Below are positions 22,057 to 37,176 of a stretch of DNA of 37,176 nt, in pieces. Origin of the DNA: Spirochaetaceae bacterium (GTDB taxonomy: Bacteria; Spirochaetota; Spirochaetia; Treponematales; Treponemataceae). The position numbers and the translations under genes are program-made. The stretch spans positions 1-37,176 of the forward strand of contig JAGAAX010000042.1 in assembly GCA_017614995.1 (NCBI GenBank), read 5' to 3'. Numbering within the stretch: the first letter of the stretch is position 1; every line of letters starts with the position of its first letter. The notes under the pieces are model-generated. The model saw only the letters and a list, made by a program, of their open reading frames with translations, did no database searches and was not told the DNA's origin.

Positions 22057-22120
22057 TGTCATTATCTGGCTTGACCCGATAATCTCTTGCAAGATTGCCG
22101 TATCAAGTACGGCAATGACA
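22057..22120. repeat. REP-like double-hairpin intergenic element
   Basis: TGTCA and TGACA border two hairpins: ATTATCTGG-CTTGA-CCCGATAAT (22061-22083) and ATTGCCGTA-TCAAG-TACGGCAAT (22094-22116). The loops are reverse complements. This two-hairpin layout is that of repetitive extragenic palindrome dimers. It sits between convergent genes and could also end transcription. Confidence 0.6.
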
Positions 22121-27864: not shown

Positions 27865-27916
27865 CTTATCTCATTTCTCCATTTTCTATTTTTAAAGCGC
27901 CCCAGTGCGGGCGTCC

Positions 27917-27979
27917 GTATAACAACTGGTTGTACCGCAGGCGGCTTGACCGCCTGTCGGCTACGAACCTATGTTATAC
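27917..27979 (-). other. attC site 1 with leader hairpin
   Basis: Core ends GTATAAC (27917-27923) and GTTATAC (27973-27979). L-box arms GGTTGTACCG and CGGCTACGAACC, the latter with two extra bases; central stem GCAGGCGG/CCGCCTGT around CTTGA. It closes the cassette of the gene at 28263-29015. The hairpin of the next cassette start (mrr side) is at 27898-27913, CGCCC/GGGCG with loop GCACTG on the minus strand. Confidence 0.85.
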
Positions 27980-27980
27980 G

Positions 27981-28262
27981 AAAATATTTCTTACCGAAAT
28001 ATTATTTACTTATTTTCTCTTTATAAAAAAGAGAATTAATTTTTTCCAAAAGCAGCACTTCTATTTTTTTATGAACAATCCTAAGCGACGAAAGTCGCGT
28101 ACTACCGCTATCTTGTGTCGCCCTAAAATAAAATAAATAATAGAAAGCAAGCTCGACTTGCTTTCTATTATTTTCCAATTTATTCAACCGCTTCTTCGCC
28201 CGAGCCCTAAAGTTCAATTCATTTTATAATCGAGCTTGACTCGATTATAAAATATTCTTTAT
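27981..28262 (-). ncRNA. Structured 3' module of cassette, copy A
   Basis: Between the stop codon of the exported-protein gene and attC 1 lie several hairpins and no gene. GCGAC/GTCGC is at 28085-28098. A perfect 16-bp stem (28136-28151/28157-28172) has loop CTCGA; a perfect 14-bp stem (28221-28234/28240-28253) has loop CTTGA. Short constant blocks CCCTAAAGTTCAATT and CGCTTCTTCGC are shared with copy B at 36034-36171. The stem-loop section is doubled relative to copy B. Whether it is transcribed is unknown; terminator, RNA-stability element and recombination structure are all possible. Confidence 0.5.
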
Positions 28263-29015
28263 CTATTCTCCATGAATTATTGATTCTATTTTTGAAGTAT
28301 CTGCATTTATTAGAATTTCAAAAACTCCTCCTAAAGCTTCATCTGGTAGAGTACCTTTAACGAACCATTTATTCTTATACTTATAAATATAATAAGGCAT
28401 TTCATCTCTTATTGTTTTAATTCCATATAAATCGAATAAAATATTTTCTGATACTTTTATTACTTCCTCGATTTTTAATAGTTTTTTTTCCTCAGGTTGA
28501 ATTCCGGTATATTCAGGTTGTATTTTTGATAATTCTTCATCTAAATCAATTTCATATAAATCTTTAACTATCGAATCAGTTCCAGAAGGATCACATATCA
28601 AATTAAAAGAATTAATGTCAAAATCAAAAACTCTTGATCTTTTAGTAATACATTTTACTTCGTAAGTATTTATGTTGAATTCAAAGATATCATTTGCTCG
28701 ATTAATAATTGTAATCGTTTTACTGTTTTTGAATTCTATATTTTTGATAAATACCCATTGAACATCTCCTTCAAGATATTCGTTTATTCGTATCACATAT
28801 ATAGGAACGGTAAAATAGTATTTTGGTTCTGTATTTGATTCGATTTTAATTATTCCAAAAAAATAATTTCCTAAATCTGTTGTTTTGTATGAAACATTGT
28901 ATGTAAATTTTTCGTTGGAGATAGAATCAGGACTCGGAGGGATATTTATATAAGCCGAAAGATTATATAGACAACCGAAAAATACAATTAATAAAATTAA
29001 AAACTTCTTTTTCAT
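28263..29015 (-). CDS. Exported protein of unknown function, cassette family member 1
   Basis: 250 aa with a signal peptide (KKKFLILLIVFFGCLYNLSA). The mature part looks beta-rich, with VQWVFIKNIEFKNSKTITI, and ends GGVFEILINADTSKIESIIHGE minus the first residues of that run. The same blocks, including WVFI-DIEFK and the IHGE end, recur in 36172-36927, so the two are paralogues carried in separate cassettes. I do not recognise the family. GGAG precedes the ATG. Periplasmic or surface location is inferred from the signal peptide. Confidence 0.75.
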   Translation of the reverse strand: MKKKFLILLIVFFGCLYNLSAYINIPPSPDSISNEKFTYNVSYKTTDLGNYFFGIIKIESNTEPKYYFTVPIYVIRINEYLEGDVQWVFIKNIEFKNSKTITIINRANDIFEFNINTYEVKCITKRSRVFDFDINSFNLICDPSGTDSIVKDLYEIDLDEELSKIQPEYTGIQPEEKKLLKIEEVIKVSENILFDLYGIKTIRDEMPYYIYKYKNKWFVKGTLPDEALGGVFEILINADTSKIESIIHGE

Positions 29016-29044
29016 TTTTCTCCAAGCACCTCAGTGAGGTGTCC

Positions 29045-31786: not shown

Positions 31787-31844
31787 CTACTTTTTAACGA
31801 ATTTTTCTATATTATTTTTTAATGAGCAGCCCAGTGGGCTGTCG

Positions 31845-33104: not shown

Positions 33105-33830
33105 CTAATACAGATAGTATCTTATAGATGCTTCTGCGATTTCTTTCATTTTCTCAAACATTTCAGGAATTGTCCACCGTTCTTCTCTAAAGAACATTGA
33201 TACTGGAGAAAAGTAATTTACATCAGAATTTCCATCTCTTTTAAAAACGTAAATTTGATTTAAATTATAAAACTCATTCATGACAATTATTTTTGAACGA
33301 ACTGTCAAAGTTTCTGGGGTATCTACAGCAAAATCACAGCCCCAGCCAAAGCAGATGAATGGAGTAATTTTTTCATAGTTCATCATTGCTTTTATTCCTG
33401 TAAGATTTTTTCCAAGTCTTTCAATAGCGTTTCCTGTTGCTTGTTTTGCTTTACCTTCTTGTAGACGTTCTTTATTTGTTCCTTGACGTTTTATTTCTGC
33501 AATGACTAATGGAGATTTTTCATTTTTCTTTTTATTTACAAGATATAATACTCCGCCATCTGGAATGATTTTTCTATCTATACAGTCATAGCAAAATTCT
33601 GAGCGGATTCTTTTTCGTTTAATAAAATCAATCATGTATTTGATTTCAATTTCTGCGGAGAATTCCAAGTCCCAATCATTTTCAAAATATGATTGGAAAT
33701 CTTTTTTACTTTTCAAATACTGTTTTACAAGTTCCATTGCCTGATAAACTTCTTTATCATCAATTTTTGATTTTGAGTTTTTAGGCTTATGCTGTTCTGT
33801 TCTTTCTCGTAAACTGTCGTGCTGGCTCAT
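33105..33830 (-). CDS. EcoRI-like type II restriction endonuclease
   Basis: 241 aa, a little shorter than EcoRI (277). The catalytic set aligns: PDGG with D91, then IAEIKRQG with E112 and K114 (EcoRI has D91, E111, K113 in PDGG and AEAKHQG). Next comes the recognition-helix block ATGNAIERLGKN, matching AAGNAIERSHKN of EcoRI, and FICFGWGCDF. The N-terminus LRERTEQHKP also resembles EcoRI. It probably recognises GAATTC or a close relative. ATG is preceded by AGGAG overlapping the methylase stop. Confidence 0.88.
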   Translation of the reverse strand: MSQHDSLRERTEQHKPKNSKSKIDDKEVYQAMELVKQYLKSKKDFQSYFENDWDLEFSAEIEIKYMIDFIKRKRIRSEFCYDCIDRKIIPDGGVLYLVNKKKNEKSPLVIAEIKRQGTNKERLQEGKAKQATGNAIERLGKNLTGIKAMMNYEKITPFICFGWGCDFAVDTPETLTVRSKIIVMNEFYNLNQIYVFKRDGNSDVNYFSPVSMFFREERWTIPEMFEKMKEIAEASIRYYLY

Positions 33831-33839
33831 AATAAACTC

Positions 33840-34946
33840 CTATTTTTCTAAGACGAAAAGATACTCTGAAACATGAATATCTCTACTTCTTAAATTTCTG
33901 CTTCCACGGAAAGTATTGTATGTAATTTCTACAGTTTTTACTTTTCCGTATTTTTTTAGCATTTCTGACATTTCATCAAATGTAATGAAACCTTCCGAGT
34001 TATATGAAATAATTGCGAACTTGCTCGACAAGTTTGCAATTATTTCTTCCATTGATTTCAATGCAGAATAAGGTTTGTTAAAAGCTGAACGATTCCAATC
34101 TTGTGTTATTCCGCTGACTTTACTTACTTCAACATCCAATTTATTTTTTATGATTAAATTGAGCATAAAATAATTGGAACCATAAGGATGCTGATTATAT
34201 GGAGGATCAAGATAAGCAATATCTAAATTCTTAAGTTCTTTAGAAAGTTCAACAGTGTCTTTTTGATAGATTTCTAATTTTGAATTAAAATTACTGAAAA
34301 TAGGTTCTTTTAATTCTATTTTTCCAAAGATTCTTGTAAGGGCATTTTTACCAGCAGCACCAAAGCAACCGATACCAGTGTTTTTATCTTTATAAAAACC
34401 TTTAAATACTCCACTTGTATTTACATGGATTGATGCTTCTGTAACCAATGGAGCCAGAAAGAACTTTTTTAATTCTTCTTCCTTTACCACATCATCAATT
34501 AATTTTCTATATGTATCGATTAGTACGGCATTTTCGTGCGTGTAGAAAACTCTTTCGCCTCTTAAAATATTATTGTCGTCTTGAGGTGCATAATTTTCTG
34601 AAATTATTCCAGGATATTTTTGCTTGGCGCAACGCTTTTCAATTTCGTTGCGTAATTCTGCACAAACTTCTGCCGGATAATCTTTTTTATTTATTAAATA
34701 GCAGATGTTGATTAATGATGAATAATTTTCAAGATCATTAACAATTAATTTTGAAGAATGCTTTTTTAGCATTCGTGCAACAATTCCAGAACCAGAAAAA
34801 ACATCTGCACATACAAGTTTTTTCTTTCCAAGTTTATTTTCTATTTCTTCAACTTCTTTTTCTATATTTCCTATTAGACTTCGTTTATTTCCAAGGTAGG
34901 TAATTATTTGAGTTGTAAGAAAATCCTTATTTTCTTCTTTTTCCAT
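33840..34946 (-). CDS. D12-class adenine methyltransferase of the EcoRI-like system
   Basis: 368 aa. Opens with YLGNKRSLI, SAM motif ADVFSGSGIVARML (47-60), catalytic DPPYNQHPYGSNYFML (247 on), and a C-terminal RSRDIHVSEYLFVLEK. This is a D12-type methylase, whereas M.EcoRI belongs to a different subtype, so the pair is a mixed combination. It should protect the endonuclease site. ATG 34946 was chosen; an in-frame TTG at 34955 is also possible. No controller-protein gene is seen. Confidence 0.85.
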   Translation of the reverse strand: MEKEENKDFLTTQIITYLGNKRSLIGNIEKEVEEIENKLGKKKLVCADVFSGSGIVARMLKKHSSKLIVNDLENYSSLINICYLINKKDYPAEVCAELRNEIEKRCAKQKYPGIISENYAPQDDNNILRGERVFYTHENAVLIDTYRKLIDDVVKEEELKKFFLAPLVTEASIHVNTSGVFKGFYKDKNTGIGCFGAAGKNALTRIFGKIELKEPIFSNFNSKLEIYQKDTVELSKELKNLDIAYLDPPYNQHPYGSNYFMLNLIIKNKLDVEVSKVSGITQDWNRSAFNKPYSALKSMEEIIANLSSKFAIISYNSEGFITFDEMSEMLKKYGKVKTVEITYNTFRGSRNLRSRDIHVSEYLFVLEK

Positions 34947-35042
34947 TTCGTCCAATATCCATTTTTTATTTTTTGATACGGAGAAATGCTATGCTTTTAA
35001 ATTTTTAAATACTTAAATTTTTCCGCCCCAGTGGGGCGTGGG

Positions 35043-35826: not shown

Positions 35827-35903
35827 ATTAGGCCTCTAAATGTTATCTCATCTTTCGTTTTCTGCTGTTGATACAAAGGCTTGCGCCCCAGTGCGGGCGT
35901 CCA

Positions 35904-35966
35904 CATAACAATTGCTTAAACCGCAAACCGGCTTGACCGGTTTGTCGGCTTTGAAGCTTTGTTATG
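35904..35966 (-). other. attC site 5 with leader hairpin
   Basis: Core ends CATAAC (35904-35909) and GTTATG (35961-35966); L boxes TTGCTTAAACCG and CGGCTTTGAAGC; central stem as in site 3. The hairpin of the next cassette start is at 35884-35899 (CGCCC/GGGCG type). Confidence 0.85.
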
Positions 35967-36171
35967 GCAAAAATATTTCTTATACAGAATTGGATTTCAA
36001 AAATACTTTTTTCGTTATAAAAATTCTGTATAACCATTTGAAGCGTATGCTTCTATTATTATACTTTTCCTAAGCGGCGTAAAGCCGCGTTTTACCGCTT
36101 CTTCGCGTAAACCCTAAAGTTCAATTTCATTTCATAAAGCAAGCTTGACTTGCTTTATGAAATATTCTTTT
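35967..36171 (-). ncRNA. Structured 3' module of cassette, copy B
   Basis: Four hairpins fill the gap between stop codon and attC 5: 12-bp TTATACAGAATT/AATTCTGTATAA (35980-36033), GAAGCGTATGCTTC (36040-36053), GCGGC/GCCGC (36074-36088), and a perfect 14-bp stem with loop CTTGA (36130-36143/36149-36162). The last directly follows the stop codon in gene direction. No coding frame fits. Confidence 0.5.
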
Positions 36172-36927
36172 TTATTCTCCATGAATCACTGATTCTATTT
36201 GTGAATTATCTGCATTTATAACAATTTCAAAAACGCCGCCTATGCATTCTTTAGTCAGAGAACCAGTCACAATCCATTTATTTTTATATTTTGATATATG
36301 ATACGGCTGTTCGTTTTTTATATTCTCTTCACCATAAATTTGGAATAATATACTTTCTGCAACAAAAACCACATCTTCAATTTTTTTTAATTTCTTCTTT
36401 TCAGGCTGTATTCCAGTATATTTATATTTTTTATTTTTTTGAATAATTGAGAAATTATCTTTCTCAAAAAGCAGATAAATCTGGTCTTTTATTTTTTCTA
36501 ATACCGGCCTTGTTTTAAAGTTTTTAATATCGAATGCAAATAATTGAGTTTCAACATTTACTGGTGTAACTTCATAAGTATCAATATTCATTTCAAAAAC
36601 ATTGTTATCTTCATTTGTAATTATAATTGTATTTTCATCTTTAAATTCAATGTCATTTATAAAAACCCATTGAACATCAGTTTCCAAGTCTTCATCAAGA
36701 CTTATTGAATATATAGGAACTTTATAGAAATATTTTGGTGAATTTATAGATTCAACTGTGATTACTCCTATCCAATTATTATAATCATTTGAATATACTG
36801 CCCCTGCACTATATTTAAAATTTTTATTTGATATAGGTTCCACCACTTTTGGATCTTCTCTTTCTGCAAAGACATTATTAATTAATACAACAAAAATTAA
36901 AAAGAAAATATAAATTTTTTTCTTCAT
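36172..36927 (-). CDS. Exported protein of unknown function, cassette family member 2
   Basis: 251 aa with signal peptide (KKKIYIFFLIFVVLINNVFA). It shares with 28263-29015 the VQWVFINDIEFKDENTIII block, TGIQPEKKKLKKIEDV, the SKYKNKWIVTGSL stretch and the C-terminal IHGE end, so the two are diverged paralogues of similar length. Function unknown. AGGATG lies before the ATG, immediately after the leader hairpin. Confidence 0.75.
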   Translation of the reverse strand: MKKKIYIFFLIFVVLINNVFAEREDPKVVEPISNKNFKYSAGAVYSNDYNNWIGVITVESINSPKYFYKVPIYSISLDEDLETDVQWVFINDIEFKDENTIIITNEDNNVFEMNIDTYEVTPVNVETQLFAFDIKNFKTRPVLEKIKDQIYLLFEKDNFSIIQKNKKYKYTGIQPEKKKLKKIEDVVFVAESILFQIYGEENIKNEQPYHISKYKNKWIVTGSLTKECIGGVFEIVINADNSQIESVIHGE

Positions 36928-36960
36928 TTTTCATCCTAAAAAGCAGGCCAGTGGCCTGTC

Positions 36961-37025
36961 GTCATAACAATTGGTTGTACCGCAGGCAGCTTGACTGCCT
37001 GTCGGCTACGAACCTTTGTTATGAC
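36961..37025 (-). other. attC site 6 with leader hairpin
   Basis: Core ends GTCATAAC (36961-36968) and GTTATGAC (37018-37025); L boxes as in sites 1 and 4; central GCAGGCAG-CTTGA-CTGCCTGT. The hairpin of the next cassette start is CAGGCC-AGT-GGCCTG at 36944-36958. Confidence 0.87.
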
Positions 37026-37176
37026 AAGTTATATTTCTTATACAGAATTAGATTTCATAATTACTTTTTTCTTTATGAAAATTCTGTGCAATCGATTGAA
37101 GCGTATGCTTCTATTATTATACTTTTCCTAAGCGGCGTAAAGCCGCGTATTAACGCTCCTTCGTCCTCGCCTTAAA
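37026..37176 (-). ncRNA. Structured 3' module of cassette, copy C (cut by window edge)
   Basis: Closely resembles copy B over 150 bases: TTATACAGAATT/AATTCTGTGCAA (37038-37091), GAAGCGTATGCTTC (37098-37111) and GCGGC/GCCGC (37132-37146). The CTTGA stem expected further right is outside the window, as is the gene it would follow. Confidence 0.5.

Follow-up and report, generated by a model that had tools for sequence, protein, structure and literature searches.

A conserved series of hairpins and short constant blocks was found between the stop codon and the attC site in roughly 27% of integron cassettes, about 73% being without it. A cassette is usually described as a gene plus an attC site. 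A third part, conserved and structured and present in about one in four cassettes of a bacterial family, would add a new layer to this anatomy. The existence of the element is well supported. As to its function, we tentatively read the module, at a little under an even chance, as a treponeme-specific, REP/BIME-like structured 3'-UTR element of integron cassette mRNAs; it most likely acts on the cassette mRNA and not on cassette recombination. Such a module would affect expression of the array, and it would help to follow, as a marker, how genes come to be linked to recombination sites.

Copies of the module in the window

The window, i.e. the whole 37,176-nucleotide stretch that was analysed, spans contig C19 from end to end; the treponeme genome to which it belongs measures 3.05 Mb. 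An integron cassette array, its genes on the minus strand, occupies the right third, and intI of the same genome is on contig C28. The first-pass annotation had described three copies of a multi-hairpin module, and all three were present: A (27973-28262), B (35967-36171) and C (37026-37176), on the minus strand like the genes. Copy C is truncated by the end of the contig, and a fourth copy of the same genome lies at the end of contig C10, so both C19 and C10 break within the module. The features of the three copies are the following.

36172-36927, minus strand: host gene of copy B, Imm-NTF2-2 domain protein; its stop codon abuts the module
36090-36181, minus strand: copy B 5' unit (U5), GAATATTT + hairpin 1 + TTGAACTTTAGGG..GAAGAAGCGG (model R2, 96.1 bits)
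36129-36163, minus strand: copy B hairpin 1, 15 bp, coding-strand loop TCAAG (opposite strand CTTGA)
35960-36128, minus strand: copy B core and 3' part (U3), reaching the attC R'' box (model R1, E 1.9e-19)
36074-36088, minus strand: copy B GCGGC/GCCGC stem
36040-36053, minus strand: copy B GAAGC/GCTTC hairpin, after TATAATAATA
35980-36033, minus strand: copy B terminal long hairpin, ACAGAATT..AATTCTGT
35903-35966, minus strand: attC after copy B (attC profile)
28263-29015, minus strand: host gene of copy A, Imm-NTF2-2 domain protein
28183-28272, minus strand: copy A first U5 unit, hairpin at 28221-28253 (14 bp, loop CTTGA)
28100-28182, minus strand: copy A second U5 unit, hairpin at 28135-28173 (17 bp, loop CTCGA)
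27972-28137, minus strand: copy A core and U3 (subtype II), GCGAC at 28085-28089 and GTCGC at 28094-28098
27917-27977, minus strand: attC after copy A (attC profile)
37017-37176, minus strand: copy C core and U3, 5' side cut by the contig end
36963-37023, minus strand: attC after copy C (attC profile)

The doubling of the stem block noted earlier for copy A was confirmed by its two unit matches. The hairpins of these two units and hairpin 1 of copy B are the only perfect hairpins of at least 14 pairs in the window. They had been given as 14-16 bp around a common loop; perfect pairing and loops (CTTGA or CTCGA) were as described, and the lengths found were 14, 17 and 15 bp. Folding was much more stable than that of shuffled sequences (z -6.1 for copy B and -5.6 for copy A). 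For copy B a global closing stem of GAATATTT with AAATATTT is predicted, in segments with hardly any variation.

Anatomy of the module

On the coding strand the stop codon is followed by about 9 nt and then by GAATATTT, which runs into hairpin 1, mostly of 14-17 bp with a TCRAG loop (G-TCRRG-C in the overall anatomy). Next come ATGAAATTGAACTTTAGGG..GAAGAAGCGGTAGTA, the GCGGC/GCCGC stem, AGGAAAAGTATAATAATA, the GAAGC/GCTTC hairpin, a long hairpin (ACAGAAT..ATTCTGT), TAAGAAATAT and the R'' box of attC. The family is modular: one or two 5' units (U5, the first ~85 nt, consisting of a near-perfect palindrome and a constant block) are followed by a 3' unit (~130 nt, with two subtypes) that ends at attC. 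U5 is sometimes doubled, as in copy A, and it also occurs alone between the genes of multi-gene cassettes, up to one gene away from any attC. In several cases the lone U5 stands just before a toxin-antitoxin pair (named by eye) with its own promoter. At L024, L061:18749-18838, L067:4145-4348 and L159, U5 is fused directly to toxin-antitoxin-like genes that have their own promoters and lie inside cassettes. Some modules are chimeric: near-identical cassettes match as far as GAACTTTAGGG and diverge after it, the remainder coming from a different parent. This indicates recombination between modules.

The conserved TTTAGGG..GAAGAAGCGG block contains in-frame stops in several copies, so a peptide-coding reading was rejected, in agreement with the original view that the module lacks coding potential. 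A promoter role of the conserved TATAAT was also discarded, since promoter-like matches in the region were no more frequent than expected by chance (47 vs 49.8).

Covariation of the stems

Covariation had been proposed from the three copies, and it held in larger alignments. In 38 non-redundant copies, 97.4% of the hairpin 1 cells were paired and both sides had changed at 12 of the 14 pairs; the covariation value was 0.688 as compared with 0.171 for shuffled alignments, none of 500 shuffles reached it, and slid versions did not exceed 0.209. Four further helices, namely the GCGGC stem, the GAAGC hairpin and two segments of the terminal hairpin, were evaluated in 118 distinct copies, in an alignment fitted to a model that holds only the GCGGC stem. 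Here 83% of the cells were paired, and covariation was 0.167 vs 0.119 (0/500 shuffles). These helices surpassed all shuffles, in paired cells and in covariation, and all slid versions, by a more modest margin than hairpin 1. The reported difference between GCGGC/GCCGC (copies B and C) and GCGAC/GTCGC (copy A) is real, and the change is compensatory, with GC in 89 and AU in 19 of the 118 copies. In a G-test over all pairs, the hairpin 1 pairs and the GGC/GCC pair ranked high, with long-range signals of the two subtypes mixed in.

The hairpin stems fall into a few block variants. Exchange of parts among modules by recombination explains the replacement of whole stems, and part of the covariation thus represents block replacement, not stepwise change. 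Hairpin 1 showed few wobble intermediates and no strand bias (~25 G.T vs 23 A.C, kinship not corrected). As expected, such a lack of preference would fit a DNA palindrome as much as an RNA. Wobble in the terminal hairpin leaned to G.T of the coding strand (~59 vs 25, kinship not corrected). The first-pass annotation had suggested an undescribed cassette-borne structured RNA. Structure and covariation support this, none of 4227 Rfam models matched, and no earlier description was found in the open-licence literature; expression and a role as RNA, as opposed to DNA, are presumed. Reverse transcriptase (PF00078), searched for as a sign of a group II intron or retron, was found in none of six genomes.

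Distribution and position

A covariance model was built from eight copies, and ten candidates per genome were scored, which makes the counts lower bounds. The full-length module was detected in at least 74 of 274 Treponemataceae genomes, representing at least 4 of 20 genera. In a sample of 393 genomes from the phylum, matches occurred in Treponemataceae only (24 genomes). Exact-pattern scans found it in Treponema bryantii, T. zioleckii, Treponema or Spirochaetales MAGs and one 4.6 kb contig labelled Clostridiales; among viral contigs the exact pattern had no match. Using the attC profile, the module was present at 48 of 182 attC sites (26%) in 22 array loci, and in a wider set in 77 of 279 cassettes (28%). 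Part of the copies derive from MAGs, but near-complete and isolate genomes (G077, T. bryantii B25) are represented among the key pairs.

A same-strand ORF ended within 220 nt upstream in 108 of 124 copies. The median distance between stop codon and stem was 9 nt, and it was 15 nt or less in 51 of the 76 copies where it could be measured. In cassettes devoid of the module the stop codon usually lies a few bases before R''.

Comparison with REP elements and proposed role

The module resembles the REP/BIME elements of enterobacteria in having palindromic hairpins in 3' untranslated DNA near the stop codon, in its composite blocks and in its association with unrelated genes. It differs from them in being confined to treponeme integron cassettes, in its TCRAG loop, in its long constant unpaired blocks and in that no RAYT was found: Y1_Tnp (PF01797) was detected in none of eight genomes, the E. 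coli control being positive. Dispersal over the chromosome outside mobile loci was not observed, as strong R2 matches outside the main arrays were all near attC, with a few weak exceptions; in the genome of the window, R2 matches were limited to contigs C19, C10 and C28, the last carrying intI. Position and form of the module are thus REP-like, but as no Y1 transposase was found it is not placed in the REP/RAYT family. A trivial explanation named at the outset was that the blocks are no more than decayed attC or copies of REP. The former does not apply; the latter is partly correct, the first hairpin being REP-like.

The same genome contains chromosomal palindromes (GAGATTATCGGGTCAAGCCCGATAATGAC) that share with hairpin 1 the TCAAG loop, the location at gene 3' ends and, for some hairpin 1 variants, a similar arm (ATCGGG/CCCGAT). 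Unlike the module, they have short 9-bp arms and neither the TTTAGGG..GCGG block nor the 3' unit. Such REP-like palindromes were seen at 22064-22119 of the window, at L008:3000-3060 and scattered in G000, at gene 3' ends and with the loop common to attC and hairpin 1.

Enterobacterial REP hairpins at such positions influence how stable the mRNA is and how downstream genes are expressed. Together with PNPase, RNase R targets mRNAs that contain REP (PMC12320835). In the cassette mRNA, the stop-proximal hairpin 1 may, by analogy with enterobacterial REP, cap the translated region at the 3' end, shield it from 3'-5' exonucleases and partly uncouple it from the next cassette, while the 3' unit would supply further hairpins ahead of the attC hairpin. 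The chromosomal palindromes, with the same loop and likewise at gene 3' ends, speak for this 3'-UTR role, whereas the absence of the module from most cassettes, the failure to find the REP-specific RAYT and the occurrence of stems as few block variants speak against it.

The module could instead be a palindromic repeat of the MITE/BIME kind, selfish or passive, which recombination spreads from cassette to cassette and which has no role for the host gene. We consider this unlikely, though deserving of some weight. The many truncated and fused forms, the chimeric modules, the tandem duplication of units and the chromosomal relatives in loop sequence are what such a repeat might leave behind, but the stems have stayed 97% paired despite change, the position right behind the stop codon is fixed, presence is stable with the gene, and no Y1-type transposase was found in the eight genomes.

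Transcription termination

Like Rho-independent terminators, the hairpins lie behind genes; unlike them, 99 of 100 hairpins lack a U-tract on the gene's strand. At least six T in the eight positions after the hairpin were found in 1 of 100 cases on the gene's strand and in 15 of 100 on the other strand, so the module is not an intrinsic terminator on the strand of the gene. It might still be an insulator that stops opposite-strand transcription, or works with Rho, and so lets each cassette be expressed on its own. Terminator-like scores were obtained in antisense orientation for one hairpin 1 each of copies A and B and for the GAAGC hairpin of copies B and C, and on the gene's strand for the second hairpin 1 of copy A; in several cassettes 5' units separate the gene from the next toxin-antitoxin promoter. 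Given the scarcity of T-rich sequence after the hairpins on either strand, this function appears improbable.

Linkage to the gene and to attC

Linkage was analysed in 279 cassettes, with pair counts not corrected for kinship. Module status differed in none of 56 pairs with genes at least 85% alike and in 6 of 52 pairs with genes 65-85% alike. Among 38 pairs at least 90% alike with a conserved left flank, the attC bodies differed (at more than 2 positions) in 22, five of them being of a different attC class; the left flank was constant as far as the R'' box. The module is therefore inherited together with the gene rather than with attC, which speaks for its being part of the gene's transcript.

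Cassettes that are otherwise nearly identical were seen to have swapped the attC body, the left breakpoint lying at the R'' box, whether or not a module was present (L070:11609 vs L061:8468, L101 vs L095, L051 vs L046, L070:8513 vs L062:16208). A crossover at the R'' box would be expected from top-strand attC recombination; gene conversion would be an alternative. Strand choice in attC recombination has been studied (PMC2727003). Possibly the making of cassettes leaves the module behind as a tag or makes use of it: unrelated genes would be joined, about 9 nt past the stop codon, to a dedicated 3' block, and a later exchange at the R'' box would replace attC. If this explanation, to which we give little credence, were true, the module would mark a cassette-forming route in treponemes.

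The first-pass annotation had also considered an extended folding unit, i.e. an additional fold of the single strand that would assist recombination by the integrase at attC. Similarities to the attC sites of chromosomal integrons (Spirochaetes type, PMC8352920) are evident: the module lies directly against the R'' box, has the same pentanucleotide loop (TCAAG), and keeps its form while the stems vary. In the predicted fold of the bottom strand it forms hairpins of its own next to an attC hairpin that stays intact. Unlike attC, it lacks R''/L''/L'/R' boxes: inspection by eye revealed no inverted boxes ending in GTTRRRY around hairpin 1, TTTAGGG merely resembling the R' core. As it follows the gene, is missing at ~134 of the 182 attC sites and can stand as a lone 5' unit between genes, away from any attC, a recombination aid is very improbable.

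Plain paralogy, the module being the 3' end of one duplicated cassette, was refuted: copies A and B do follow homologous Imm-NTF2-2 genes, but the fourth copy of the genome lies behind an unrelated gene, and the hosts comprise 69 distinct proteins in 55 unrelated blastp clusters, with Pfam matches from GNAT acetyltransferases to EcoRII, Mrr and GmrSD.

Other hairpins in the window

Short hairpins at 27897-27915, 29025-29040, 31828-31842, 35028-35042, 35883-35901 and 36944-36958 mark the cassette start, just past the R' crossover and upstream of the start codon; their stems vary around CACT (e.g. CAGGCC-ACT-GGCCTG and CACCTC-ACT-GAGGTG). An 18-bp hairpin very similar to hairpin 1 (34006-34046, loop CTCGA) lies within a D12 methyltransferase gene, and a homologous gene at L074:9809-9893 also has such a hairpin. 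In one cassette (33105-34955) an EcoRI-like restriction gene adjoins a D12 adenine methyltransferase gene, and the neighbouring cassettes carry DpnII-type and Mrr genes.
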